Below are positions 4,522 to 32,866 of a stretch of 40,089 bases of DNA, one piece after another; within the stretch, counting starts at the first letter, position 1, and every line of letters starts with the position of its first letter. Location: positions 1 to 40,089 of the forward strand of contig CAUJFJ010000215.1 in NCBI GenBank assembly GCA_963169675.1, given 5' to 3'. Below the pieces are notes generated by a model. That model saw nothing but the letters and a program-made list of their open reading frames with translations, had not been told where the DNA came from and made no database searches. This DNA comes from Bacteroidota bacterium (GTDB taxonomy: Bacteria > Bacteroidota > Bacteroidia > AKYH767-A > OLB10). The position numbers were made by a program, and so were the translations under genes.

Positions 4522-4568
4522 TCACCACATTTGGTAATTGTACAGGCCGAAATACGGGGGCACTTTTG
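4522..4568 (+). promoter_or_regulatory. Distal kinase promoter P1 with ACCA-N4-TGGT palindrome
   Basis: TCACCACATTTGGTAA (4522-4537) is followed at once by TTG (4538-4540), 20 nt, then CACTTTTG (4561-4568), a 7/8 match to TAnnTTTG. The same arrangement occurs before the response regulator and the SBBP protein genes. If transcription starts about 3 nt after the -7 element, the palindrome is centred at about -41.5, the class II activator position. Confidence 0.6.
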
Positions 4569-4578
4569 GTGAAGATGA

Positions 4579-4625
4579 TACCTGATTTCAGGTATTTGGT
4601 AACCAGCCGGATATTTTTATATTTG
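4579..4625 (+). promoter_or_regulatory. Proximal kinase promoter P2 with consensus -33/-7 and a 16-bp palindrome
   Basis: TTTG (4595-4598), 19 nt, then TATATTTG (4618-4625) is a full Bacteroidota promoter, 28 nt before the start codon. Directly upstream is the perfect palindrome TACCTGATTTCAGGTA (4579-4594), centred at about -41.5. Its half-sites (ACC-N8-GGT) differ in spacing from the ACC-N6-GGT of P1, so it may bind a different protein. Confidence 0.65.
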
Positions 4626-4653
4626 AAGAATTGATACCCACTAAGAGTGATTT

Positions 4654-7026
4654 ATGAATAACTGTATAAAGAGTGCTTTATTTGGGATAACCTTCTTATT
4701 GATTTTTTGCCTTCCCGGGAAGGTATTTGCACAACAAACCGAATTTGCAAAATGGGAATCGAACCTGGCTCAGGCGTCCAATGATTCGTTGCGATTTGTG
4801 GCATTGACAAAACTTTTCAGTTTAAATGCTCGTGCAAAAATTGATCTGGCAAATGATTATTTAATCAAAGCAGAAGAAATCGCAAAAGGGAAGCAATCTG
4901 CATATTATGAAGGTGTAGTTTTAAATCAGCGTGCTGCCTATTTTAATTATAAAGGAAATTACGATTCCACATTTGCTTATGCAACGAGGGCATGTGAAAT
5001 ATTGGAGAAGAGTCCGTTTAAAATTCCATACGCCAAGGCATTAGGAACTCTGAGTACAGCATTAGGAACTCAGAATCAAAAACGAATTGACATCTTAAAG
5101 AAATGCCAGGTTATTTATGAAGAATTTAAAGACACATCAAGTCTGATCTGGACCTACAATGCCATTGCTAACAATTATACTTATCTAAACAAGTTTGACA
5201 TTGCACTTGATTATTCCAATGATGCTTTAAGGTTAGCTAAGAAATCAAATTCAGTAGCTGATATTGGATCTACTTTGAATAAAATTTGCAACATTTATTT
5301 TGAGCAGCAAAAATTTGATGAAGCGGTAAAAACAGGTTTAGATGCATTGGAATATCACAAAAAAGCTGGCAACACCAATGATGAAATCTGGGTTTACATT
5401 ACTCTGGCGAATATTTTTTACAACCAGAATAATTTTCCGAAATCACATGAATATTATGATAAGGCATTAGAACTTTCAATAAGTTCAGGAATCAAAAACA
5501 GAATTGCGCGAATTTATCTTGAGAAAGGGAATGCCTATTTATTAGAGAAGAAATATCAGGATGCTGAAACGTATTTCGAAAAAGCTATGGCAGCTGCCAT
5601 AGCAAATAACAGCGTTTACTTTACCATGGCGTCAAACAGTGGTTTTGCCGATTTACACTATGAAAAAAAGGATTATGTGAAATCTATTTTTCATGCAAGA
5701 ACGGGATTAGAGATAGGTGAAAAACTAAATGCAACTACGGATTTACCTTATCTGATTAATTTAATCGGTCTTAATTATTTTCAGTTAAATAATCTGGATA
5801 GTGCGAGCTTTTACGCTGAAAAAAGTTATTCGCAGGCAGTGGCCATTAATGATATTAAGAAAGTAATGGATGCTTCCGATTTACTTTCCAAAATTTATGA
5901 AAAGAGCGGAAACTATTCCGGAGCGCTGAAGTATTTTCAAAAATATAAACTGCTGCAGGATTCCATTTACAATGAAGAAAAGGCAAGAATTATAGTCGAG
6001 GCAGAGAGCAAATTCCAGACTGCACAAAAGCAGGAAGAAATTCAACGATTGCTTTCGGAGCAAAAAATTAACATGCTTATTCTGGAACAAAGAGAGCAGC
6101 AATTAATTCTGGAAACATCAAAAAACAAGAGTAAGGAAGATCAACTGGCATTAGCTGAAAATGAAGCGAAGATTAAAGATCTGCAATTGACAGAAGTACG
6201 TTTGAATGAAGAAAATCAGCGGAAGAAATTATTACTTCAACAGGCGGACCTGGAGATGAGTGCAAAAAATCTGGATCTCGCAAACCAGATAAGTGCCAAA
6301 GAAAAATCACTGCGGAATGTTTCGTTAATAGCAGTGCTGATCACCTTAGTTGCTGCGTATTTGTTGTTTGTTCATTTTAACAGGAAAAAACAAAGTGAAA
6401 AAAGAATTTCATTAATAGAAGAACGGTTACGAATCAGTCGGGAATTGCACGATGATTTAGGAAGTACCTTGAGCAGCATTTCTGTATACAGTGATGTAGC
6501 AAAAAACAGAGCATTGAAGAATGCAGGCAATGAAGAAGTTTTGAATAAAATCAGTTTTGCTTCGCGTGATCTCATCGATAAAATGAGTGACATTGTATGG
6601 AGTTTAAATCCGGGAAACGAATCTATAGATCAGTTAAAAAACAGAATGCTTGCATTTTCAGCGATGATGCTATCTCCCAATGGAACTTCTTTTCAATTTG
6701 ACTTTGAAAACGATTTATTGGCAATGGTTTTATCGCCTGAAAAACGTAAAAATGTTTTCCTCATTTTTAAAGAAGCCATTCATAACATCGTTAAACATGC
6801 CGGGGCAAAAAATGTCATGGTATCGTTGAAGAGTAAATCGGGTGTTTTGCATCTCGAAATAGCTGATGATGGTGTTGGCTTTCCGGCCCTGACCAATGGT
6901 AACGGACTAGGAGGAAACGGACTGCATAATTTAAAATCGCGGGCAAAAGATATCGGTGGAGAACTTTATCTGGGAAAGGCAGAACCATCCGGAGCTTTGG
7001 TGCGTTTAACTTTTAAGACAGATTAA
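4654..7026 (+). CDS. TPR-containing sensor histidine kinase (HisKA_3/HATPase_c, NarX/DegS type)
   Basis: This 790-aa kinase has a signal peptide (residues 1-27, ...KVFAQQ). Tetratricopeptide-like helical repeats follow (~45-435), recognisable from recurring A-x3-Y and ALE/ALR patterns, then a coiled coil (~440-550). A transmembrane helix spans ~556-575. The dimerisation/phosphoacceptor helix has RELHDDLGS with H599. The ATPase domain has an N-box EAIHNIVKHA (~707-716), DDGVGF (~738-743) and GNGLHNL (~754-760). The sensor region should therefore be periplasmic and the kinase cytoplasmic. The NarL-type regulator gene follows 119 bp downstream and is the obvious partner. Shared promoter palindromes suggest the pair regulates itself. 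The signal is unknown. Confidence 0.93.
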   Translation: MNNCIKSALFGITFLLIFCLPGKVFAQQTEFAKWESNLAQASNDSLRFVALTKLFSLNARAKIDLANDYLIKAEEIAKGKQSAYYEGVVLNQRAAYFNYKGNYDSTFAYATRACEILEKSPFKIPYAKALGTLSTALGTQNQKRIDILKKCQVIYEEFKDTSSLIWTYNAIANNYTYLNKFDIALDYSNDALRLAKKSNSVADIGSTLNKICNIYFEQQKFDEAVKTGLDALEYHKKAGNTNDEIWVYITLANIFYNQNNFPKSHEYYDKALELSISSGIKNRIARIYLEKGNAYLLEKKYQDAETYFEKAMAAAIANNSVYFTMASNSGFADLHYEKKDYVKSIFHARTGLEIGEKLNATTDLPYLINLIGLNYFQLNNLDSASFYAEKSYSQAVAINDIKKVMDASDLLSKIYEKSGNYSGALKYFQKYKLLQDSIYNEEKARIIVEAESKFQTAQKQEEIQRLLSEQKINMLILEQREQQLILETSKNKSKEDQLALAENEAKIKDLQLTEVRLNEENQRKKLLLQQADLEMSAKNLDLANQISAKEKSLRNVSLIAVLITLVAAYLLFVHFNRKKQSEKRISLIEERLRISRELHDDLGSTLSSISVYSDVAKNRALKNAGNEEVLNKISFASRDLIDKMSDIVWSLNPGNESIDQLKNRMLAFSAMMLSPNGTSFQFDFENDLLAMVLSPEKRKNVFLIFKEAIHNIVKHAGAKNVMVSLKSKSGVLHLEIADDGVGFPALTNGNGLGGNGLHNLKSRAKDIGGELYLGKAEPSGALVRLTFKTD

Positions 7027-7081
7027 TTAATTGATAAGCAATTTATTATGATTTTTCTTAGCTATTTAGCCATTCCAATGA

Positions 7082-7128
7082 TTACCACTATTAGTAATTG
7101 AGTGAATGGTAAATTCGGTGTTTCTTTG
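7082..7128 (+). promoter_or_regulatory. Response-regulator promoter with the shared palindrome
   Basis: TTACCACTATTAGTAA (7082-7097) is followed by TTG (7098-7100), 20 nt, then TTTCTTTG (7121-7128), a 7/8 match to TAnnTTTG. The start codon lies 17 nt further. Spacing is identical to the sites at 4522 and 7871. Confidence 0.6.
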
Positions 7129-7145
7129 CAGTTAATTTAAATTGG

Positions 7146-7793
7146 ATGAACAAGATTCGGGTAGTAATTTTTGATGACAATGCACTTCTTCGGGATTCAA
7201 TTTCGCTGTTGATTGGAGATACTGATAACCTGGAGCTGGTAGGATCCTTCCCGAATTGCAAACAATTAAAAGACAATATCACAGAGTCGAATCCACATGT
7301 AGTAGTGATGGATATTGATATGCCCGGAATTAATGGCATTGAAGGTGTTGTTTTAATACGGAAGTTTTTCCCCGATATTCATATTTTGATGCAGACGGTA
7401 TTCGACGATGATGACCGGATTTTTTCAGCGCTCAAAGCAGGTGCGAGTGGTTATATTCTAAAAAATGCCGGATCAGCAAAATTGCTTGATGCCATAGTGG
7501 AAGTGCATAATGGCGGTGCTCCTATGTCGCCGAGTGTTGCCAAAAAGGTGTTGAATCAGTTTCAAAGCGGAAAGCCCGATTCTGAGGAGGATTTTAATTT
7601 ATCGGCTCGCGAAAGAGAAGTTTTAGGGCTGTTGGTCAAAGGCAAAAGTTATAAAATGATTGCCGATGAGTTGTGCATTTCGTATGATACGGTGCGCGCG
7701 CATATGAAGAAAATTTATGAGAAACTGCATGTCAGTTCCATGACTGAAGCAGTGGCAAAAGCCATTAACAAAAACATCTTTGGCTTCTTTTAA
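7146..7793 (+). CDS. NarL/FixJ-family response regulator (REC + LuxR HTH)
   Basis: This 215-aa cytoplasmic regulator has a receiver domain (1-~120). The acidic pair is D10/D11. The phosphoacceptor is D56 in MDIDMPG, the conserved threonine is T84 and the lysine is K106 in GYILKNA. The LuxR-type helix-turn-helix (~152-210) has the usual LSAREREVL and DTVRAHMKKIYEKLHV signatures. It should be phosphorylated by the HisKA_3 kinase encoded just upstream. Palindromes before the kinase, this gene and the following SBBP protein gene are the natural candidates for its binding sites. That link is inferred from geometry and repetition, not shown. Confidence 0.95.
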   Translation: MNKIRVVIFDDNALLRDSISLLIGDTDNLELVGSFPNCKQLKDNITESNPHVVVMDIDMPGINGIEGVVLIRKFFPDIHILMQTVFDDDDRIFSALKAGASGYILKNAGSAKLLDAIVEVHNGGAPMSPSVAKKVLNQFQSGKPDSEEDFNLSAREREVLGLLVKGKSYKMIADELCISYDTVRAHMKKIYEKLHVSSMTEAVAKAINKNIFGFF

Positions 7794-7836
7794 TTCGGTC
7801 AATAGTTGTACTTATGTGCTTTTTAGGTCAAAATAT

Positions 7837-7882
7837 ACACCATTTCTGGTATTGCGGGACCTTCTAAAAGTTACCACCTTTG
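7837..7882 (+). promoter_or_regulatory. Upstream copy of the palindrome-promoter module before the SBBP gene
   Basis: ACACCATTTCTGGTAT (7837-7852), TTG (7852-7854), 20 nt, then CACCTTTG (7875-7882), a 7/8 match to the -7 element. Its -7 element overlaps the palindrome of the next module at 7871. The two palindromes are 34 bp apart, so occupation of one could affect use of the other. Confidence 0.45.
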
Positions 7883-7917
7883 GTAATTGCCTGAAGTATC
7901 AAATTTTAATTTATTTG
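7871..7917 (+). promoter_or_regulatory. SBBP-gene promoter with the best copy of the shared palindrome
   Basis: TTACCACCTTTGGTAA (7871-7886) has exact 6-bp arms. TTG follows at 7887-7889, then 20 nt, then TTTATTTG (7910-7917), a 7/8 match to TAnnTTTG. The module places the start codon at 7938 and not at the in-frame ATG at 7887, which lies inside the promoter. Confidence 0.65.
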
Positions 7918-7937
7918 TAAATTATTCTAATTCTGCC

Positions 7938-10900
7938 ATGCCCCCATTTTTAAATGACTTTAACTACAACATCTTTTCTTTAAGAAGGTTGTGGTTTATG
8001 ACATTTTTCATTCTTATTTTGTTTCAGTCAACCAGTCAGGCTCAATTCCAGACTTTTGAATGGGCCAGGTATGGTGGTGGATCGGGATTGGAAAGAGCTG
8101 AATTTATTGGTACAGACGCAGGAGCGAATGCTTATGTATCGGGCAAATTTGAGATTACAACTGACTTTGATCCGGGTGCCGGCACTACCAACTTAACACC
8201 TGCAGGTTTAGGTGATATTTTTATCATGAAATCGGATGCTACCGGCAATCTGGTGTGGGCAAACCGGATTGGTAGTACAGGTGACGAATACATTTCGGCC
8301 ATGGCAGTTGATCCTGCAGGCAACGTATATCTTGCTATTGGTTTTGGCGGGACTATCGATGTTGATCCCGGGGCAGGTGTGGCATCATTCACGCAGCCGG
8401 CGTTTGCAAATGGAGTTGTATTAGTAAAATTGAACTTCAATGGAGTATTTGTTTGGGCAAAGCAATTTGGACAGGCATCTCAAAGTATAAATATTGGTGC
8501 TCTCGATTTTGATCTTAATTTTAATTTGGTTGTAGCTGGAGAATTTTTCGGCAGTGTGGATATAAATTTTGATGCTCCGGTTCTTACTTTCAATATTGGG
8601 GCCGGAGTTTTTTGTGACTCATACATTATGAAAGTTTCAAATGCCGGAGCATTTACATGGGCCAAACAATTAAGAACAACATCTGCCTTGGCTACTATCA
8701 ATGATTGTAATTATCCTCAGGCTATAAATGTAGATGATTTGGATAACATTATTATCACCGGGTGGTTGAGGGGAGCCATGGATTTGGATCCGGGAGCTGG
8801 TACGGTAACCGCTAATGCAAATACGAATGATGGGGTTTACATTGCTAAATATTCTAATGTAGGTAATTATGTATGGGGTGGAGCTATAGTAAGCGCAGCT
8901 CCGGGTTTGTGGCCCCGTGATATTAAAACAGATGTTCTGGAGAATATTTATGTGGCTATGTATTCATTTGGAGGTAATATTGATTTTGATATCAACGCAG
9001 GTGTTAGTAATATGAATACGGTTAATGGAGTTCCCTGTTTACTAAAATTAACTCCAGCAGGTGCATTCGTATGGTCAAAAACCTTTTCTCAAAACGCCTG
9101 GTCCTCTTATATAAGTATAGATGTCTCGCAGGGTGCAACCCCTTATCTCATGATGGCAACCGGTTTCACATATACTAAAGATCTCGATCCGAATGCAGGT
9201 AATGTTCCGGTAGTTGCTACTCCTGAATACTTTGGTGGATTGTCTGATAATGATGCGTTAGTGCTTAAGTTATCGGCAAATGGCGATTATGTAGACCATG
9301 CCATTTTTAGTGGCCCTAAAGCGGAAACAATTTATGACATGGTACTGACTCCCGGCAGTAATTTTATTGTCACGGGTAGTTTTTCAGGGGTCGCTGATTT
9401 CGATCCCGGCGCTGCAGTAAATCAGAAAATATGTAAGGGGGCAGAGGATATATTTACAGTACGATTAAGTCTGATTCTTGATCATGTGTGGTCTCATAGC
9501 ATAGGTTCAAATGGAATACTAACCGCAAATTGTCTTGCAAAATCTGTAACTACCAGAACAATTGCGGGTGGTTCAGTTGTAGGTTCATCTCAACTAAACT
9601 TTAACACAGCCATTCCTAATAAAAATGCCATGATTTCTTCGACCAGTAATTCGGGTTATAGTGGTCTCAGTTCCTATGAATTTGGCGGTCCCGGAAATGA
9701 TGAAATAACAGCTGTGTGTCAGGATACCGGAGGTAATGTTTTTGTAGCAGGCACTTTCGAACAGACTGCAAATTTGGCGAAGAATCGCTTTGACACACCA
9801 CAGAATTTTGCATCTGCCGGAGGGAAAGATATTTTCATTATAAAATACAATAAAAATTTTCAAACGGTTTGGGTGAAACAAATAGGTAATGTGAATAGTG
9901 AAGAAGTTTCAGCAATTGCTGTGAAAGGTAATAGTGTGTATTTAACAGGTGCCTACAAAGGAACACTCGATTTTAATCCCAATGCCGGAACATTAAATCT
10001 GACTTCTGCTACTAACACTTTCGATATATTTGTCATGAAACTGGATACAGCCGGAGCATTTGGATGGGCAAAATCAATTGGCTCTGGAACAGCTTATGAT
10101 ATTGGAAATGGAATTACAGTTGATCCTTCAAACAATGTATTGGTAACTGGGTATTATTCCGGCGCTGCCGACTTTGATCCGAATGCCGGCACTTTAAATT
10201 ATACTTCGGTTGGCGTTGCCGATATTTTTGTTTTAAAATTAACGAGTGCCGGAAATTTGCTTTGGGCAAAATCTATTGGAAGTGGATTGGATGATGTAGG
10301 GACAGACATCATAACTGATAACATCGGAAATGTATATCATACGGGCCATTTCAAAATTACAGCCGATTTTGATCCGGGACCAGGAGTGTATAATTTATCG
10401 ACTTCCGGTGGTATATCCAACAATGACGGCTATATTCAAAAACTTGATCCCAATGGAAATCATTTGTGGTCGGGACATTTAAAAGGTACCGGCAATGATC
10501 TGCCATCTGCTATTACTATTGATAAAATTAATAATATTTATGTCTCCGGAACTTTTGCAGGAACTATTGACATGAATCCATTTATTTCTCAAACACAGAA
10601 TCTGACTGCCGCCGGTAGTACCGATGGATTTGTATTAAGTTTGAGAGTAGCCGATAGTACCTGCTGGTTTTATAACATCGGTGGTGCTGTTGCTGACAAT
10701 GCTCAGGGAATTGCTGTCGACAGTCTCTTTTATGTTTATACCATAGGTAATTTTAGCGGAGCAGTCGATTTTGACCCATTCCCTCCTTCATTCTCCTTGA
10801 CAGCAAATGGGGCGCCAATGGACATGTTCACACTTAAGCTCGGTCAGGTTTCTCCGTTGCCAATTGAATTATTATCGTTCACAGCTAAGCCTGTCGATAA

Positions 10901-13853: not shown

Positions 13854-15185
13854 CTATTTCGTGATTATGATTTTATCATTCAGCACTTCTGATCCGGTTC
13901 GTAGTTGAATCAGGTAAATTCCGGGTTCAGTTATATCCACTTGCTGAAGATCGGTATATTGCTGTTCAGTATAAATTATTTTGCCGGCAATATCCGTAAT
14001 GATTAATTCTGCCGATGAAATTTCACTTTGGATATAAAATTTTCCTTTTGATGGATTTGGGAATGGCTTAACAGTGTTATCGGATGAATTTAATTCATTC
14101 ACTAAAGTTGTGGTACCGAAAATTAATTCAAAATTAATAGCATAATTGTACGCTGTTTCACAAGTATGAACAGCATCCCAGTTAATCGACCAGGTCATCA
14201 TACCTCCTAAACTTGGATAAATGTTAGTGAGTGTATAAAGACCAGGTTTCGGTCCGTTTCCACGGATGTAATCAATTGCTGATTTAACGGTAACATCATT
14301 TACAAATCCGCCACCGGCAGCATTACCGCATGCAGGTAAACCTACAGCAATTTTGTGAGCGGGTAATCCCTGAAAAAATCCGCCGCCTGTCTGAAATCCC
14401 TGTACTACTGCCTCGGTCATTGCAACAATAAAATCAGCATTTCCCTGTGTGTAAATTCCACCATCGATTCCATACATCGATCCACTGTTGTATAATTGCA
14501 TATGCAACAAATCAATGGAATCGCGCAAAGCATTTATGATCGGCAAATAGCCACCCCAAATTCCGCCATAAGCCGACATGCCACCGGTGACATAAGCAGT
14601 TTCAGGTGCCATGGTCAACAACATTTTCTTACCGAAAGTAGTCCGGTAGTTTTGCATGATTTGCTGAATGGCATAAATCAAGTGTTGTTGTGAAATATTT
14701 GTCGGACTAGCAATGGTTCCTCCGGTAATGGTGATGGCATTTCCATGTTCAATATCGATATCCATCCCATCAAAGCCATAAGTCACCAACAAGTTGGTCA
14801 TGGAAGTGATGAAGGCATCTCTGTTAATAGTTGTTGTTAAATCGATAAAAGCATTTGCACCACCAATACTTAACAATACTTTTTTTCCGGCAGCCTGCAA
14901 TGCCTGAACTTGTGCTATGAATGCGGGAACACTTCCATTATCAGGAGTAAAAGTCATGGTCATATCCTGTGGCGATACCGGAACTGCAAAAGAAATTTCT
15001 ATAACATTATAACGGTTGTCGATTGCATTTAAAGGAATGTAAGGAGCACTCGCATCATTCCAGTTGTGCCAGTAACCGACAAGAGCAGGGGAAGGTAGTT
15101 GGGCGTATCCTGAATTGTTTATTCCGCCACAAACCAGTAACATCAAACAAACCTTAACCAAATGTCTACTTATTAGTGCCTTCAT
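13854..15185 (-). CDS. Secreted GH18 chitinase with T9SS type A sorting domain
   Basis: This 443-aa protein starts with a signal peptide (~1-29, ...NNSGYAQ). The GH18 barrel (~32-350) carries both family signatures: SIGG (106-109) and DGMDIDIEHG (139-148), where D139, D142, D144 and the catalytic acid E146 form the complete DxxDxDxE motif. MTWSINWD near the barrel end supplies the usual substrate-platform tryptophan. After a short linker the last ~70 residues are a T9SS sorting domain (PFPNPSKGKFYI, IAGKIIY, PGIYLIQL). No separate chitin-binding module is seen. It should hydrolyse extracellular chitin or related beta-1,4-GlcNAc polymers. It is a single gene, 83 bp upstream of the symporter operon on the same strand. 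Confidence 0.93.
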   Translation of the reverse strand: MKALISRHLVKVCLMLLVCGGINNSGYAQLPSPALVGYWHNWNDASAPYIPLNAIDNRYNVIEISFAVPVSPQDMTMTFTPDNGSVPAFIAQVQALQAAGKKVLLSIGGANAFIDLTTTINRDAFITSMTNLLVTYGFDGMDIDIEHGNAITITGGTIASPTNISQQHLIYAIQQIMQNYRTTFGKKMLLTMAPETAYVTGGMSAYGGIWGGYLPIINALRDSIDLLHMQLYNSGSMYGIDGGIYTQGNADFIVAMTEAVVQGFQTGGGFFQGLPAHKIAVGLPACGNAAGGGFVNDVTVKSAIDYIRGNGPKPGLYTLTNIYPSLGGMMTWSINWDAVHTCETAYNYAINFELIFGTTTLVNELNSSDNTVKPFPNPSKGKFYIQSEISSAELIITDIAGKIIYTEQQYTDLQQVDITEPGIYLIQLRTGSEVLNDKIIITK

Positions 15186-15456
15186 ATCAATTATGCTTTT
15201 CAGTGAATTTCTAATCGTTGAAAGTACTTTAATTATTTTAAATTTACAATAATGTGTTCTGTATTGCCTTGATATACATTAATTTAATTGATTTTCGGAG
15301 ACCAGGTTGCACACACCAAATTGGCTCAGATTTGTTAAATGGTTTGGGATGGAAAGGAAAAGTAAAGGTAAATATTGATAGATTATGCAACTAACAAAAT
15401 GTTGATTCCGTCAGGTTGTTGCTGTTACTTTCAAAACGCACTTGAATATTTCACTT

Positions 15457-18400
15457 ATGAAAAAATTACATCTTCTGCTCGTTACCTTTTGTGTTTATTC
15501 ACTTTCGGTTTGTGCTCAACATCCAACCGGGAATCAAGTTTCCAATTCTAAATGGAATACTTCCGGTAACAAAATGGGAGATGAGCGATTCGAAAATAAG
15601 GCTGCATTCCGAAAGATGTTGGAGAAAAGAACTTTTCCTGAAACAAGTAAAAATCGTTATGGTGCATGGATGGAGGAACTTGCTGAATTCAAAAATTCAA
15701 ATCCACAACAGCAAGTTGCAAACTGGACACATATCGATGCCAGTGGTAGTTTATTGAATGATGTTGGCCGCACTTCATCGATCACTATAGATACGGTTAA
15801 TGCAGGCAGGTTTTATGTCTGCACTCCACACAGTGGTGTTTGGGTGACTACAAACAATGGAAATTCCTATGTACCGATCACCGAAAATATGCCCACGCAA
15901 AATACTTCTTGCCTGGTTTATGATCCATTGAATACATCGACATTGTACCTGGCCACCGGAACCCACAATATGGATATGCCTCCGAATAGTATGGGTGTTT
16001 TTAAATCAACGGATACCGGTACTACCTGGAATGTTACCGGACTCTCCTTCTCTCCAGCAGATGGTCATACCATCGGGGATCTCATGATTAATCCGTCGAA
16101 TTCCAATTCATTATTAGCTGCAACAACAGATGGTTTGTACAGAACTTTTGATGGCGGGATATCATGGAATAAAATTATAAATGATACTATATTTAGCGTG
16201 AGGTATAAACCGGGAGATACCACCACAGTATATGCAGTTGGAAGGCGCTATTACCGTTCTGATAACAGCGGCACAACATTTACCCAGATAACTTCCGGAG
16301 TGTTAAGCACATTTGATTATAGCTACGAATATTTTGTTCGCACTACGAAAGCTGATCCAAATATTTTATATCTGTTTACCGCCGGGGTATGGATTGGATC
16401 AGGATTTAATACCAGGTTGTATGTTCACAAATCAATAGATAATGGTTTAACATTTTCCGTAATCGATTCACTTGCCGGTGATGCATGTTATCAATCAGAT
16501 GTATCTCAGCTTACACCCGATAGAATAGCTTCGGGATACCGGGGAACTGCTTTCAGAAATGGTAGCGGCTCTGCTTATGTAACAGCTTCACTACCATATT
16601 CAGGTGGATCATTTCCATACATGCATGCCGATCAAAGAGGTATTTTATTCGACCCCTTTGATGATAATATTATTTATTATTGTAATGATGGTGGATTGTA
16701 TCGTTCAACGGATGGAGCAGTAACTTTCCAGAATATTACTGCCAACATGGAGTTGACGCACTTATATGATTTTGCTGTCTCCCAGTCAGACCCCTATAAA
16801 ATTGTAGTTGCAACATTGGATGTAAGTCCATATATACTTGGCAACAGTGGCATTGCAACCACCTTTTCTAATTTCTTTGTGGAAGCTTTCTCCACCAGTA
16901 TGAGTCCGTTAAATGATGACAGATTTCATTTAGCCCATCAAACACCATACTTTACCACGAACAGCGGAAGTTCTTTTTATAGTTCTTCTCATCCGATGAT
17001 TGGTAATGGATCTTATGAGGCAAATAGCATTCAATTCGATGAATGTAATGAAAATGTTTGCTATTTTTCTTCATGGAATGATATTTACAAAAGTGATGAT
17101 GGTGGTGCATCGTTTATGGAGTTTGTCGAAACACCTTACAATCCCGTAAATTCATTTATACGATCGCCGCTTGCCTACAAAGTTTGTCGATCTAATCCCC
17201 GATTTGTTTATGTGGCTTACACCGATTCAATTTATATAACCAAAGATGGAACAAGTAATTTTACTAATATATCTGCAGGATTGCCGGTTGGTCAGGCTGC
17301 AATTTCTTCCATCGCTGTTGATCCTGTTAACGAAAATCACATTTGGGTTTCTTTCTCCGGATATAATTCGGGCAATAAAGTCTTTTTTTCTGCAGATGCA
17401 GGCCAAAACTGGACTAATATTTCTGCGGGACTACCTAATATTCCAATCAATGAACTGGTTTGTCAAACCGGATTTGCCGGCGCCATTTATGCTGCGGCAG
17501 ACGGAGCCGTTTTTTATAAAGATAATACGTTTTCAAACTGGCAATTATACAACACAGGATTGCCTGCTGTTATTATAAATGGAATCGAAATACAATACAA
17601 TACCGGTAAATTAAGGGTTGCAACTTTTGGAAGGGGAGTGTATGAAAGCGACCTGTTTCAGTCAACTCCTCCCGGATATGTTTTGCCACCTGTAGCTTTG
17701 TTCCAGATTCCTAATACAACATCCTGTGTGGGTGCTTCACTTACTCTTGAAAATATTTCATGTGGTATAGTTGATTCTGTGTTATGGTTGTTCCCGGGTG
17801 GTACACCTGCTACTTCTGTTGATTACAATCCAGTGGTTTCTTATGCAGCTTCGGGAAACTATACAGTTACACTCATTGCATACAACAGTGGAGGGTCCGA
17901 CACGCTAACACTTCCAAACTACATCACAATTCAGGTTCCTCAGTCAATTCCATATTATGAACCTATAGGCGATTTAAATCTTCAGATTCTTCCTGCCGGA
18001 TGCAGTAAAACAGATGTTAATGGTGATGGCGTTTCCTGGTGGCGATCGTTTTACCCCGATGGCTCATCAGGGTCCGGCGACGATTTTTTGGTGTATGATA
18101 ACTTCAACTATGCACTTGCAGGATTGGAAGAAGCATTTATTCTTCCACAGATAGATCTTTCTACAGCTACCAATCCGATGTTGTATTTCTACCGCTCCTA
18201 TAACCGTCGTGATCAGTTTACAACCGACTCGCTAAAAATAGCAGTGCGTGCATGTGGTGGAAATGATGTGGTGTTGTATGCAAAAGGTGGATTGCAACTG
18301 GCAAATTCAGTAGCTACTTTTCCAGCTACATTCTGGACACCAAACCTTCCTTCTGATTGGATCAGAGATTCTCTTGATTTAACTTCGTTTGCAGGTGAAG

Positions 18401-18732
18401 AAGCAGTAACGATTTCTTTTATAAATAAAGGATATTCCGGTCAACTTCTCTATATTGATGATTTCAGAATTATGGAAGCAGGAACAACTTCTTTACAGGA
18501 ACCTCAGGCCGTTGAATTTTCTATATTCCCCAATCCTGCAACATCAAAGCTTTATATCAGAGGCTTCACGGCCCGGTTAAATACTATTGTGATTAATGAC
18601 CTCACCGGTCGTGCTGTATTAAATAATACTGCTTCAGGATTTGATGATGTGATAGATGTTAGCTCGCTGGCAAAAGGATGTTATTCGGTATCAATTAATG
18701 ATACTGCTCCTCAATTGATAATTATCAATTAA
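15457..18732 (+). CDS. BNR/sortilin-like beta-propeller protein with PKD, jelly-roll and T9SS domains
   Basis: The protein is 1091 aa; the start is placed at MKKLHLLL (15457), not the ATG five codons earlier, to give a normal signal peptide ending VCAQ. Residues ~80-740 hold BNR-type propeller repeats (KSTDTGTTWN, YRTFDGGISWN, KDGTSNFTNI). A PKD domain follows (~745-830, with YNPVVSYAASGNYTVTL), then a choice-of-anchor/MAM-like jelly roll (~835-1010), then a T9SS sorting domain (FSIFPNPATSKLYI, AKGCYSVSI). It is paralogous to the protein at 29429-32866, sharing the NWT.I...GR opening and the propeller-PKD order. Propellers of this type occur in secreted glycosidases and adhesins; no catalytic site is evident. 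Confidence 0.88.
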   Translation: MKKLHLLLVTFCVYSLSVCAQHPTGNQVSNSKWNTSGNKMGDERFENKAAFRKMLEKRTFPETSKNRYGAWMEELAEFKNSNPQQQVANWTHIDASGSLLNDVGRTSSITIDTVNAGRFYVCTPHSGVWVTTNNGNSYVPITENMPTQNTSCLVYDPLNTSTLYLATGTHNMDMPPNSMGVFKSTDTGTTWNVTGLSFSPADGHTIGDLMINPSNSNSLLAATTDGLYRTFDGGISWNKIINDTIFSVRYKPGDTTTVYAVGRRYYRSDNSGTTFTQITSGVLSTFDYSYEYFVRTTKADPNILYLFTAGVWIGSGFNTRLYVHKSIDNGLTFSVIDSLAGDACYQSDVSQLTPDRIASGYRGTAFRNGSGSAYVTASLPYSGGSFPYMHADQRGILFDPFDDNIIYYCNDGGLYRSTDGAVTFQNITANMELTHLYDFAVSQSDPYKIVVATLDVSPYILGNSGIATTFSNFFVEAFSTSMSPLNDDRFHLAHQTPYFTTNSGSSFYSSSHPMIGNGSYEANSIQFDECNENVCYFSSWNDIYKSDDGGASFMEFVETPYNPVNSFIRSPLAYKVCRSNPRFVYVAYTDSIYITKDGTSNFTNISAGLPVGQAAISSIAVDPVNENHIWVSFSGYNSGNKVFFSADAGQNWTNISAGLPNIPINELVCQTGFAGAIYAAADGAVFYKDNTFSNWQLYNTGLPAVIINGIEIQYNTGKLRVATFGRGVYESDLFQSTPPGYVLPPVALFQIPNTTSCVGASLTLENISCGIVDSVLWLFPGGTPATSVDYNPVVSYAASGNYTVTLIAYNSGGSDTLTLPNYITIQVPQSIPYYEPIGDLNLQILPAGCSKTDVNGDGVSWWRSFYPDGSSGSGDDFLVYDNFNYALAGLEEAFILPQIDLSTATNPMLYFYRSYNRRDQFTTDSLKIAVRACGGNDVVLYAKGGLQLANSVATFPATFWTPNLPSDWIRDSLDLTSFAGEEAVTISFINKGYSGQLLYIDDFRIMEAGTTSLQEPQAVEFSIFPNPATSKLYIRGFTARLNTIVINDLTGRAVLNNTASGFDDVIDVSSLAKGCYSVSINDTAPQLIIIN

Positions 18733-29351: not shown

Positions 29352-29383
29352 GTTGCTAGTTTTCAATTATAGTGCTACATTTG
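29352..29383 (+). promoter_or_regulatory. Promoter of the second BNR-propeller gene
   Basis: GTTG (29352-29355), 20 nt, then TACATTTG (29376-29383), an exact -7 match. It leaves a leader of about 40 nt before the ATG at 29429, and covers the in-frame ATG at 29372, which is therefore not the start. Confidence 0.6.
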
Positions 29384-29428
29384 AAAATTGAACCCAATAC
29401 AACTCAAAAACTCCAAATCAACTTACTT

Positions 29429-32400
29429 ATGAAATTAACACTCAGACAACTGGCACTGTTGCTAGCCTGTTTCCTGTTTTCATCAACCTTATTCGCTCAG
29501 GATTGGGTTAAGAAAATGCAGGACCCGAATACGAACTTCTTCGAAGTTCAGCGGTCTTTCAACGAATATTACAACGACTATGTGGCGAACTATCGCCAAC
29601 AGTTTGGAACCGATCCTTCAAGGGTTCCCGGTTACAAACAATATAAGCGTTGGGAATATATCATGGCTCCACGTGTTGGATCCGATGGCACCCGTTTTAA
29701 TCCTTCAGCAGTTTGGAAAGAAAGTAAACAATACCGCCAGCAGGTAAGTGCTTTTAATGCAGGTAACTGGACATTCATCGGTCCCGATGTGGTTCCTAAT
29801 GGTGGTGGTGGTGCCGGACGATTGAATTTCGTTCGTATTCATCCTACCAACCCCGATATTTTATACGTAGGTTCTCCCGCCGGAGGATTGTGGAAATCGG
29901 ATGATGGTGGAATTTTATGGACTACCAATACCGATCAGTTAGCACAGGTAATTGGTTGTACGGATCTTGCATTTGATCCTGTAAATCCGGATATCATGTA
30001 TCTCGCAACCGGTGATGGTGATGCTGGTGATACTTACACTATCGGTGTTCTGAAATCAACTGATGGCGGTGCAACATGGAATACAACTGGTCTCTCTTTC
30101 TTCACAGCGAACTATCGCCAAATGAGTAAAATTTTGGTTAATCCTAATGATGGAAATTTAATTCTGGTTGCTACTACCGGTGGTGTTTACCGTAGTACGG
30201 ATGCTGCCGCAACGTTTACGCTGGTACAAACAGGATCATTCAAAGACATGGAGTTTAAGCCGGGTGATCCTAATACGGTTTATGTTGCTGGTGGTGAATT
30301 TTATCGTTCTACCGATGCCGGTCTTACATGGACAAAAACTACAACCGGTTTACCAAATGTTGCTAATGTTAGCCGTATGGCAATTGCCGTTACAGAAGCA
30401 GATCCAAATTATGTTTATATGATTGTTGGTTTGCCTGCACCAAATTATGGTACCGAAGGCTTTTATAAATCTACAAACAGCGGAGTAAGTTTTACAAAAC
30501 CAAGTACTCCGGGTTTAGGAACACAGCAATGGTATTACTTGTGTATCGATGCTTCTCCAACTAATAAAGATGAGGTTGTTGTAGGTGGTCAGACAGATTT
30601 CCTTCGTTCTACCAATGGTGGTTCAGGATGGAATCAGAATGGCGGAAATACACACGTTGATTACCATGATATTAATTTTGAGAATGGAACCAAATACTAC
30701 ATGGGTAATGATGGTGGTATTTATGTTACAGATAACAGTGGTGCATCGTGGAATAATCTGAGCAACGGTCTTGCTATTGCACAGATGTATGGTTTCGGAC
30801 AATCAGCAACAAATCCAAGTTTGCTTGTTCAGGGATGGCAGGATAATGGTACCAATAAATTTAATGGACTTACCTGGTCACACATTCTTGGTGGTGATGG
30901 TATGCTTTGCTTTATTGATCGTACCAATGATCAGAATATCTGGGGTTCAACTCAGAATGGCGGACTTGCCAGATCTACTAATGGTGGAGCAACATGGGCC
31001 GGAGCAACAAACGGTATCAACGAAGCTGGTGCATGGGTTACTCCATGGTTACAGGATCCTGTAAGTGCCAACACACTATACGCAGGTTTTGTGAATGTTT
31101 GGAGAAGCACTACCGCTGGAGCTGGTTGGGTTAAGATTTCTAATTTCACAAACACAGCACAAATTAATACGTTGGCTGTTTCACCTGCAAACAATCAGGT
31201 GATCTGGGCTGCTAAAGCAACCGGTTTGTACATGACATCAAATGGTGGTACCAACTGGAACACCATCAGCAACGTGCCATCCGGAACTATCACAGGCATT
31301 GCATGCAGCAATACTGACCCTAACAAAGCATGGATTACTTACTCCGGATTTTCAAATACCAATAAAGTATTCCAGACAAATGATATGGGAGCTAGTTGGA
31401 TTAATATCTCTGCTTCTATTCCAAATGTACCGGTTAACTGTATCACCTTTGTGAATAATTCTAATGATGCAATTTACATCGGAACCGATTTAGGAGTGTT
31501 CTATAAAGATGCTTCTCTCAATGTTTGGGAACCATACTTCAACGGTCTGCCAAACGTTATTGTAACACAACTGGAAGTGTTTTATCCAACAGGAAAATTA
31601 AGAGCTTCCACTTATGGAAGAGGAATGTGGGAAACTGATTTATTTGTTCCCGGTACTTATCCTCCTGCATCTTCATTTACTGTAAATACAAGAATCGGTT
31701 GCCCAGGAACTGCTTTGCAATATTCAGATTATTCTACAGGTTCACCAACTTCCTGGTCATGGACATTCCAGGGAGGTAATCCTTCAACTTCATCTGATCA
31801 GAATCCGGTAGTTACTTATAACACTCCGGGCACATACGAAGTTACGCTTTCTGTAACCAATTCAATTGGAACAAACAGCTACACCCAAACTAACTATATT
31901 ACTATTACACCAAGTCCGTATAATGCTCCGGCAACTGTTGGCGCACAACGTTGCGGACCAGGTATTGTTAACCTTTCTGCATCAGGAACAGGTTTAGGAA
32001 ATCTCAGATGGTGGGATGCACCGGGTGGTGGAAATTTACTGAACACCGGAAGTACTTATTCGCCAAATATTGCTGCTACAACAACTTATTGGGTGGATGA
32101 AGATTTCCCAAGTGGCTTACAGGATTTCACCGGTGAGTTCAATAACTTAAATGGTGTAGGTGCATTCTTCACTGCCAATGATATCAGAGGTTTGTATTTC
32201 GATGTACTTGCTCCGGTTGTTGTAAACACGCTGGATGTATATCCAAATTCAGCCGGTAACAGAACCATTGAGATTTTGGATTCTCAGGGAAATACAGTTA
32301 TTGATACTACAATATTTATGGCTGCGAGTCCGAATAACCCACTTACTGTGAATGTTAATTTCACGCTCTATCCGGGAACTAATTATTTCATTAAATGTCG

Positions 32401-32866
32401 AGGTAATGTGGATCTTTTCCGGAATTCATCCGGTGCAGTTTACCCATACAACAGCAGTCTGATTAATATCACTAACAGTAATGCCGGTTCACCGGGATAT
32501 TACTATTTCTTCTACAATTGGGTGTATACCGAAATTACCTGTAACACTGCCCGTACTTCTGTAATGGCAGTTGATACTTGTAATACTGTAGGGATAAATG
32601 AAATTACTGCGAATGATCTGATCAGCATTAATCCGAATCCGGGTAATGGTGTATTTAATGTTGCATTTACTCCTGCAACTCCTGCAGATTATAACCTGCA
32701 AATTATCAATGCACTTGGTCAGGTTATTTATAACGAACAACTTCCTGAACTGAAAGCATACTTCAGCAAGAAACTTGATCTTACTAAATTTGATGCCGGT
32801 GTTTATCAGTTACACATCAACGGTGGCGGAATGCGTTCCACACAAAAGCTGGTGATACAGAAATAA
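29429..32866 (+). CDS. BNR/sortilin-like beta-propeller protein with PKD, Ig-like and T9SS domains
   Basis: The start is ATG 29429, where a signal peptide (MKLTLRQLALLLA...LFAQ) begins; a longer frame from 29372 starts inside the promoter. The product is 1145 aa. BNR-type repeats fill ~110-740 (KSDDGGILWTT, KSTDGGATWNT, YRSTDAGLTWTK, ARSTNGGATW). A PKD domain follows (~745-830, QNPVVTYNTPGTYEVTL), then an Ig-like domain (~835-890, CGPGIVNLSASGTG...TTYWVDE). A beta-rich region (~895-1050) and a T9SS sorting domain (SINPNPGNGVFNV, DAGVYQLHI) complete it. It is paralogous to the protein at 15457-18732. It should be exported and anchored or released at the cell surface; no enzyme active site is visible. 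Confidence 0.9.
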   Translation: MKLTLRQLALLLACFLFSSTLFAQDWVKKMQDPNTNFFEVQRSFNEYYNDYVANYRQQFGTDPSRVPGYKQYKRWEYIMAPRVGSDGTRFNPSAVWKESKQYRQQVSAFNAGNWTFIGPDVVPNGGGGAGRLNFVRIHPTNPDILYVGSPAGGLWKSDDGGILWTTNTDQLAQVIGCTDLAFDPVNPDIMYLATGDGDAGDTYTIGVLKSTDGGATWNTTGLSFFTANYRQMSKILVNPNDGNLILVATTGGVYRSTDAAATFTLVQTGSFKDMEFKPGDPNTVYVAGGEFYRSTDAGLTWTKTTTGLPNVANVSRMAIAVTEADPNYVYMIVGLPAPNYGTEGFYKSTNSGVSFTKPSTPGLGTQQWYYLCIDASPTNKDEVVVGGQTDFLRSTNGGSGWNQNGGNTHVDYHDINFENGTKYYMGNDGGIYVTDNSGASWNNLSNGLAIAQMYGFGQSATNPSLLVQGWQDNGTNKFNGLTWSHILGGDGMLCFIDRTNDQNIWGSTQNGGLARSTNGGATWAGATNGINEAGAWVTPWLQDPVSANTLYAGFVNVWRSTTAGAGWVKISNFTNTAQINTLAVSPANNQVIWAAKATGLYMTSNGGTNWNTISNVPSGTITGIACSNTDPNKAWITYSGFSNTNKVFQTNDMGASWINISASIPNVPVNCITFVNNSNDAIYIGTDLGVFYKDASLNVWEPYFNGLPNVIVTQLEVFYPTGKLRASTYGRGMWETDLFVPGTYPPASSFTVNTRIGCPGTALQYSDYSTGSPTSWSWTFQGGNPSTSSDQNPVVTYNTPGTYEVTLSVTNSIGTNSYTQTNYITITPSPYNAPATVGAQRCGPGIVNLSASGTGLGNLRWWDAPGGGNLLNTGSTYSPNIAATTTYWVDEDFPSGLQDFTGEFNNLNGVGAFFTANDIRGLYFDVLAPVVVNTLDVYPNSAGNRTIEILDSQGNTVIDTTIFMAASPNNPLTVNVNFTLYPGTNYFIKCRGNVDLFRNSSGAVYPYNSSLINITNSNAGSPGYYYFFYNWVYTEITCNTARTSVMAVDTCNTVGINEITANDLISINPNPGNGVFNVAFTPATPADYNLQIINALGQVIYNEQLPELKAYFSKKLDLTKFDAGVYQLHINGGGMRSTQKLVIQK

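Follow-up and report, generated by a model that had tools for sequence, protein, structure and literature searches.

A palindrome-promoter module before a sensor kinase, its NarL-type regulator and a type IX surface protein points to a regulator-specific operator architecture in Bacteroidota

We analysed a stretch of 40,089 nucleotides (nt) from a Bacteroidota bacterium (assembly GCA_963169675.1, contig CAUJFJ010000215.1, referred to here as the window), which forms contig C215 within a 3.87-Mb genome. A sensor histidine kinase, a NarL/FixJ-type response regulator and an SBBP beta-propeller surface protein encoded there are each preceded by the same promoter module, in which TTG comes directly after a palindrome of the general form (T/C)ACCA-N4-T(G/A)GTAA and an element resembling TAnnTTTG lies exactly 20 nt further on. 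Comparison across related genomes makes it probable that the NarL-type regulator acts as a class II activator and regulates its own expression, within a phylum-wide architecture in which the operator is specific to each regulator.

On both strands of the window, the exact pattern ACCA-N4-TRGT-N2-TTG-N20-NNNNTTTG is confined to three places, with ACCA-N4-TRGT cores beginning at 4524, 7084 and 7873. The expectation by chance, under a model of independent and identically distributed letters, is 0.0003 exact modules per window and 0.03 per genome, and no match was obtained in 20 Mb of first-order Markov sequence. A first-pass annotation of this DNA had listed palindromes at 4522, 7082 and 7871; all three are present, and these coordinates fit 16-bp palindromes. 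The TTG, the spacing of exactly 20 nt and the 7/8 match to TAnnTTTG that it described were likewise borne out at all three promoters, although the 7/8 score counts both n, and the -7-like elements CACTTTTG, TTTCTTTG and TTTATTTG each match 5/6 informative positions. TTTG, as expected at the -7 position of a Bacteroidota sigma-A promoter, is present in every case. The loose core ACCANNNNTRGT is also enriched in the window (14 matches compared to 2.1 expected, palindromic sites being counted twice). The other loose cores, at 14706, 19830, 30173, 30611, 35791 and 36145, were discarded as they lack TTG-N20-TTTG. A reading of the palindromes as terminator hairpins was ruled out by the very short stem, the lack of a T-run and the occurrence of the same element before the kinase gene.

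Table 1. Genes and predicted promoter features of the locus (window coordinates)
Feature	Coordinates	Strand	Basis or remark
Palindromic operator (predicted), kinase promoter, TCACCACATTTGGTAA	4522..4537	+	
-33-like TTG, kinase promoter	4538..4540	+	
Possible degenerate second operator GGCACTTTTGGT (9/12 to ACCACATTTGGT)	4559..4570	+	inference
-7-like element CACTTTTG, kinase promoter	4561..4568	+	exactly 20 nt after TTG
Sensor histidine kinase, 790 amino acids (aa): TPR repeats, HisKA_3, HATPase_c	4654..7026	+	Pfam
Palindromic operator (predicted), response-regulator promoter, TTACCACTATTAGTAA	7082..7097	+	
-33-like TTG, response-regulator promoter	7098..7100	+	
-7-like element TTTCTTTG, response-regulator promoter	7121..7128	+	20 nt after TTG
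NarL/FixJ-type response regulator, 215 aa, helix SYDTVRAHMKKIY	7146..7793	+	Response_reg + GerE
Upstream tandem palindrome ACCATTTCTGGT	7839..7850	+	34 bp before main SBBP site
Palindromic operator (predicted), SBBP promoter, TTACCACCTTTGGTAA	7871..7886	+	
-33-like TTG, SBBP promoter	7887..7889	+	
-7-like element TTTATTTG, SBBP promoter	7910..7917	+	20 nt after TTG
SBBP beta-propeller surface protein, type IX C-terminal sorting domain, about 1151 aa	7938..11393	+	SBBP + Por_Secre_tail

For scans of the genome and of the order, we used the full module with at most one mismatch and the reversed pattern as a control. The genome contains five matches, namely the three window sites and one each on contigs C17 and C141, neither of which had played a part in building the motif and both of which stand before genes. 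On C17, the match is the promoter for a NarL-type paralogue of the regulator, which adjoins its own Reg_prop/Y_Y_Y kinase, while the C141 match is a tandem pair before a short exported protein. Among 42 genomes of the order, the module was matched 20 times and the reversed pattern 0 times, and where the genes behind the matches were read, they encode the kinase, regulators or exported proteins. A scatter of the motif over random genome positions, which the first-pass annotation had named as one outcome that would overturn its proposal, was thus not seen, and a genome-wide repeat was ruled out by the same scans. In another genus (g5, genome G019), four sites lie along one locus, with products of 1814 aa, 1101 aa and 576 aa (SBBP + Por_Secre_tail) and a terminal regulator gene. 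Since an SBBP + Por_Secre_tail protein stands there under an ACCA module beside a regulator, the SBBP arrangement is seen in a second genus. This locus (L386-L387, G019:C84:24500-48318), with its ACCA modules at four promoters, encodes several type IX proteins (PKD_6, Cu-binding_MopE, SBBP), and at its end stand a propeller kinase and the NarL-type regulator.

The congener comparison was made with one genome (G001), which carries the same five modules, the regulator and SBBP copies at two mismatches. Identity to this genome at fourfold sites is 35% for the kinase, 29% for the regulator and 44% for the SBBP gene compared to 67-85% in flanking genes, and the silent sites of the three genes are near saturation; the regulator protein is 91% identical to its counterpart. 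At the response-regulator promoter (congener palindrome ACCACATTTAGT, -7 element TTATTTTG) and the SBBP promoter (ACCACTTTTGGT and GTTATTTG), the palindrome, the TTG, the 20-nt distance and the TTTG are kept and the intervening 20 nt are not. Palindrome and spacing that are kept although silent sites have diverged mark these two promoters as a real footprint. The congener kinase module, which lies at C24:39486 and has the -7 element CACATTTG, likewise keeps its palindrome and spacing. The predicted operator is present and conserved upstream of both the regulator and the kinase gene, a candidate site for autoregulation of the pair. The closest match to the regulator found in a named species, at 61% identity, is from Flavihumibacter solisilvae (Chitinophagaceae), whose helix TYDTVRAHIKKIY (TYDTVRAH) compares with SYDTVRAHMKKIY (SYDTVRAH) in the window; between its regulator gene and a short exported protein, this species has ACCATTGTTGGTAATTG-N20-GTATTTTG.

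Across 4570-10800, which takes in the kinase and regulator genes and the greater part of the SBBP gene, DNA identity to the congener is 54-80%, while the flanks have mostly 86-98%. This low-identity block starts directly after the kinase -7 element and ends near the SBBP C-terminal domain, and it looks like an exchanged, diverged allelic cassette. Additional putative operator copies were noted at two of the promoters. The tandem palindrome ACCATTTCTGGT upstream of the SBBP site, which continues as A-TTG, was absent from the first-pass list of sites and is not clearly retained in the congener. The possible degenerate copy GGCACTTTTGGT covers the kinase -7 element 35 bp after the first palindrome and has the congener counterpart CACATTTGGT. 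Tandem operators 34-35 bp apart were seen both at window 7839-7884 and at locus L055 (2249-2284, minus strand), and the TTG-N20 of the upstream copy places its -7 box (CACCTTTG, CAAATTTG) within the downstream operator.

For 155 distinct related regulators from the window genome, its relatives and named species, we measured the distance of any 4+N4+4 palindrome to any TTTG, upstream and downstream of the regulator gene. The distance from the palindrome centre to TTTG peaks at 35 nt, with 11 cases upstream and 18 downstream against averages of 1.2 and 2.5 at other distances. The pile-up spans 34-36 nt before the -7 TTTG, mostly 35, and the peak persists after thinning the sample to 65% protein identity. 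The 35-nt peak appeared again (12 versus 0.84) for 81 held-out regulators fetched later, for which 23/162 regions exceeded a threshold set on the first sample compared to 1.3 expected. In both the training and the held-out set, the palindrome therefore lies at a fixed position (35 +/- 1) abutting or overlapping the upstream promoter element, as is expected of a class II activator site. The genes behind a downstream module look exported in 30/37 cases compared to 55/195 without a module (p = 2e-9), and a difference is also seen for exported-looking genes of at least 80 aa (30/35 with a module, 55/98 without, p = 0.002). Thus, a palindrome of its own placed 35 (34-36) nt before TTTG is likely to be a wider arrangement among NarL-type regulators of Bacteroidota, and this architecture, found before the regulator's own gene and/or a neighbouring exported protein, is on comparative grounds general to the regulator family. 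Reg_prop/Y_Y_Y sensors accompany related regulators.

The half-sites vary by regulator and include ACCA..TGGT, ACTA..TAGT, CCCG..CGGG, CCAT..ATGG, ACAT..ATGT, CTAC..GTAG, ATAT..ATAT and others. Sites were present both upstream and downstream for 14 regulators, whose half-sites agree in 6.4/8 letters compared to 2.8 when shuffled, a value reached in 0 of 5000 shuffles, and operator similarity follows recognition-helix similarity (Mantel p = 0.0004). Two other NarL-type regulators of the window genome have modules of their own, one on C229 with ACTATTATTAGGgattg before an exported 'NIGINNPAP' protein (L109 / G000:C229:4438-4482) and one on C186 (L107) with CCCCGATATCGGGG and CCCCGAATTCGGGG upstream and downstream. 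Among S/T-Y/F-x-T-V-X helices in the first sample, the third half-site base is mostly C where X is R or H, T where it is N and G where it is D, residue-base pairs that are chemically sensible. This code was fixed in writing ahead of fetching new loci. The new sample held a single case of the stated helix class, L257 (TVN with ACTA), which agrees with the code, and among looser cases N agrees in 2/2 and K in 3/3. R outside the Y/F class departs from the code in the new sample, with ACAT, CTAC and other half-sites, and no new D/E helix turned up among the newly fetched loci. We regard the residue-to-base recognition code as a suggestive hypothesis.

The products of the locus fit a two-component circuit with an exported target. 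The regulator combines a receiver (PF00072, 1.4e-20) with a GerE/LuxR-type helix-turn-helix (HTH) domain (PF00196, 9.9e-18), as is characteristic of NarL/FixJ regulators, and the adjoining kinase has the HisKA_3 (8.1e-10) and HATPase_c domains of a NarL/FixJ partner kinase. The SBBP protein, for which the likely start is ATG 7938, 20 nt from the -7 element, carries a Por_Secre_tail domain (residues 1097-1165, 2e-10) typical of type IX cargo. Two more large type IX proteins in the window (15442-18732 and 29372-32866; Sortilin-Vps10, PKD) are without the ACCA module. In the proposed mechanism, a signal would act through the kinase to give phosphorylated regulator, a dimer of which would sit on the 16-bp palindrome directly upstream of the -33 TTG, touch the main sigma factor or RNA polymerase and so recruit polymerase to a poor -33/-7 promoter. 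The output would be more regulator and kinase as well as synthesis of the surface protein, and the operator copies over -7 elements, tandem at the SBBP gene and C141 and possibly degenerate at the kinase, could put a brake on the loop once the regulator is abundant. Sites, fixed spacing, conservation, enrichment, per-regulator consistency and exported targets are read from sequence, while the inferred parts are that the regulator binds, that it activates, that it must be phosphorylated to do so and that a signal feeds the kinase.

The first-pass annotation, assuming its own transcription start, had centred the palindromes near -41.5. That value holds with the assumed start, but the centre would shift to about -43.5 if the -7 box is placed at -12 to -5 as reported for Flavobacterium psychrophilum (PMC9723704). 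A centre at -41.5 to -43.5, against the sigma contact at -33, would be a class II position. The annotation further proposed a NarL-type regulator that occupies the palindromes, controls its own gene and that of the kinase, and turns on the SBBP protein; this is supported by the congener conservation, the Flavihumibacter ACCA operator, the regulator-specific operators at a fixed position and the SBBP arrangement in the second genus. Several observations weigh against it. A detectable module is present at a minority of regulator loci (51/310 regions), and the Poisson p-values overstate significance because related promoters were counted. Receiver-domain similarity, too, is correlated with operator type (r = 0.39), so that ancestry accounts for part of the apparent helix effect; what remains independent of ancestry is weak but positive (partial r = 0.16, p = 0.011). 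In addition, the -7 elements deviate from the consensus, the -33 box assumed here is a weak one in Bacteroidota, the C17 paralogue has an ACCA operator almost identical to the window sites, and the operator position may also be compatible with repression.

A repressor sitting at -33 and blocking polymerase would make the autoregulation negative, and the signal would turn the surface protein off. The operator does abut the -33 TTG, the degenerate second operator may cover the kinase -7 element, and the tandem copies at the SBBP gene and C141 put one palindrome over a -7 box. We nevertheless consider repression quite improbable, as a repressor requires no exact position, yet the distance to the -7 element is 35 +/- 1 across many regulators, and the promoters look weak by themselves; an exact distance kept while the operator letters change favours activation by polymerase contact. 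It is also conceivable that the module is read by a transcription factor encoded elsewhere or by an alternative sigma factor, given that the support for the linked regulator is sequence-based and that a motif fused to a promoter at a fixed distance resembles a sigma motif. However, the half-site changes with the adjacent regulator while promoter geometry stays, and upstream and downstream sites agree, which disfavours a sigma or global factor and leaves this explanation very unlikely. Short palindromes are common in AT-rich DNA, as the 14 loose cores in the window illustrate, but chance or a non-regulatory repeat is refuted at the sequence level by the expectation for the exact module, the absence of reversed-pattern matches and the retention of the module in diverged DNA, and we give it practically no weight.

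The C17 regulator might instead be the main occupant of the window sites (TGGTAATTG form), or both regulators might bind them in a shared or hierarchical regulon. Both have ACCA..TGGT operators: the C17 paralogue (helix SYETVHSH) has the promoter ACCAATACTGGTGATTG-N20-TAATATTG, with the same core half-site, and the left flank TTC of the kinase site also occurs in several C17-type sites. The two types differ in the base after TRGT, which is A in 7/7 window-type sites (window genome, congener and Flavihumibacter), including all three in the window, and G in 14/15 C17-type sites, though the sites are related and the p-value of this test is nominal. Relatives having the C17 type alone use the G form. 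Binding mainly or jointly by the C17 regulator is therefore unlikely, while the C141 pair, with T and G at this flank, more likely belongs to the C17 regulator. Given the near-identical operators, cross-talk between the two regulators is possible.

Class II activators of the NarL/FixJ family in Proteobacteria bind an inverted-repeat dimer site near -41.5 beside the sigma-contact hexamer, and autoregulation is common among them. The window regulator resembles these in its receiver and GerE (LuxR-type) HTH domain and its predicted inverted-repeat site. It differs in that the promoters are of the Bacteroidota sigma-A type (TTG / TAnnTTTG), the operators are unlike NarL heptamers, the half-site differs from paralogue to paralogue while its distance stays fixed, and the predicted targets are adjacent exported proteins. 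The Bacteroidota housekeeping promoter has a -33 TTTG and a -7 TAnnTTTG (PMC7366714, PMC9723704), to which the TAnnTTTG-like -7 elements (5/6) and the TTG near -33 correspond; in contrast, the window modules combine an imperfect -7 with an exact 20-nt spacer and a palindrome fused upstream. PorX/PorY-SigP, like the window pair, links a two-component system to type IX secretion in Bacteroidota. PorX is reported to work via a sigma factor or to target the secretion motor (PMC4800418, PMC5005315), whereas the predicted site of action of the window regulator is the promoter of a single cargo gene beside it. The hybrid two-component systems of Bacteroides polysaccharide loci, in which kinase and regulator are one polypeptide and the targets are SusCD-type uptake systems (PMC11253607), are similar in that the sensor adjoins the surface genes it would control, but in the window the kinase is separate from a NarL-type regulator and the predicted targets are proteins exported by type IX secretion or in other ways. 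A literature search, of incomplete coverage, found no published operator family or direct target for such Bacteroidota two-component regulators. The operator architecture is thus general, testable and apparently unreported, while the mechanism itself is not new in kind.

With a fixed position and a regulator-specific palindrome, the operators and targets of many of the hundreds of uncharacterised orphan regulators may be assignable from sequence. The arrangement also suggests how single type IX surface proteins come under their own sensor, and it offers a natural data set on how the DNA specificity of paralogous regulators diverges without cross-talk. A more speculative extension, to which we give somewhat less than even weight, is that such circuits are insulated units found across the phylum, each with a sensor, a regulator and an adjacent exported protein, a private palindrome at one promoter position whose letters are set by a few helix residues, and open to exchange as allelic cassettes, which the window cassette appears to have undergone. 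If true, targets and specificities would be readable from sequence.

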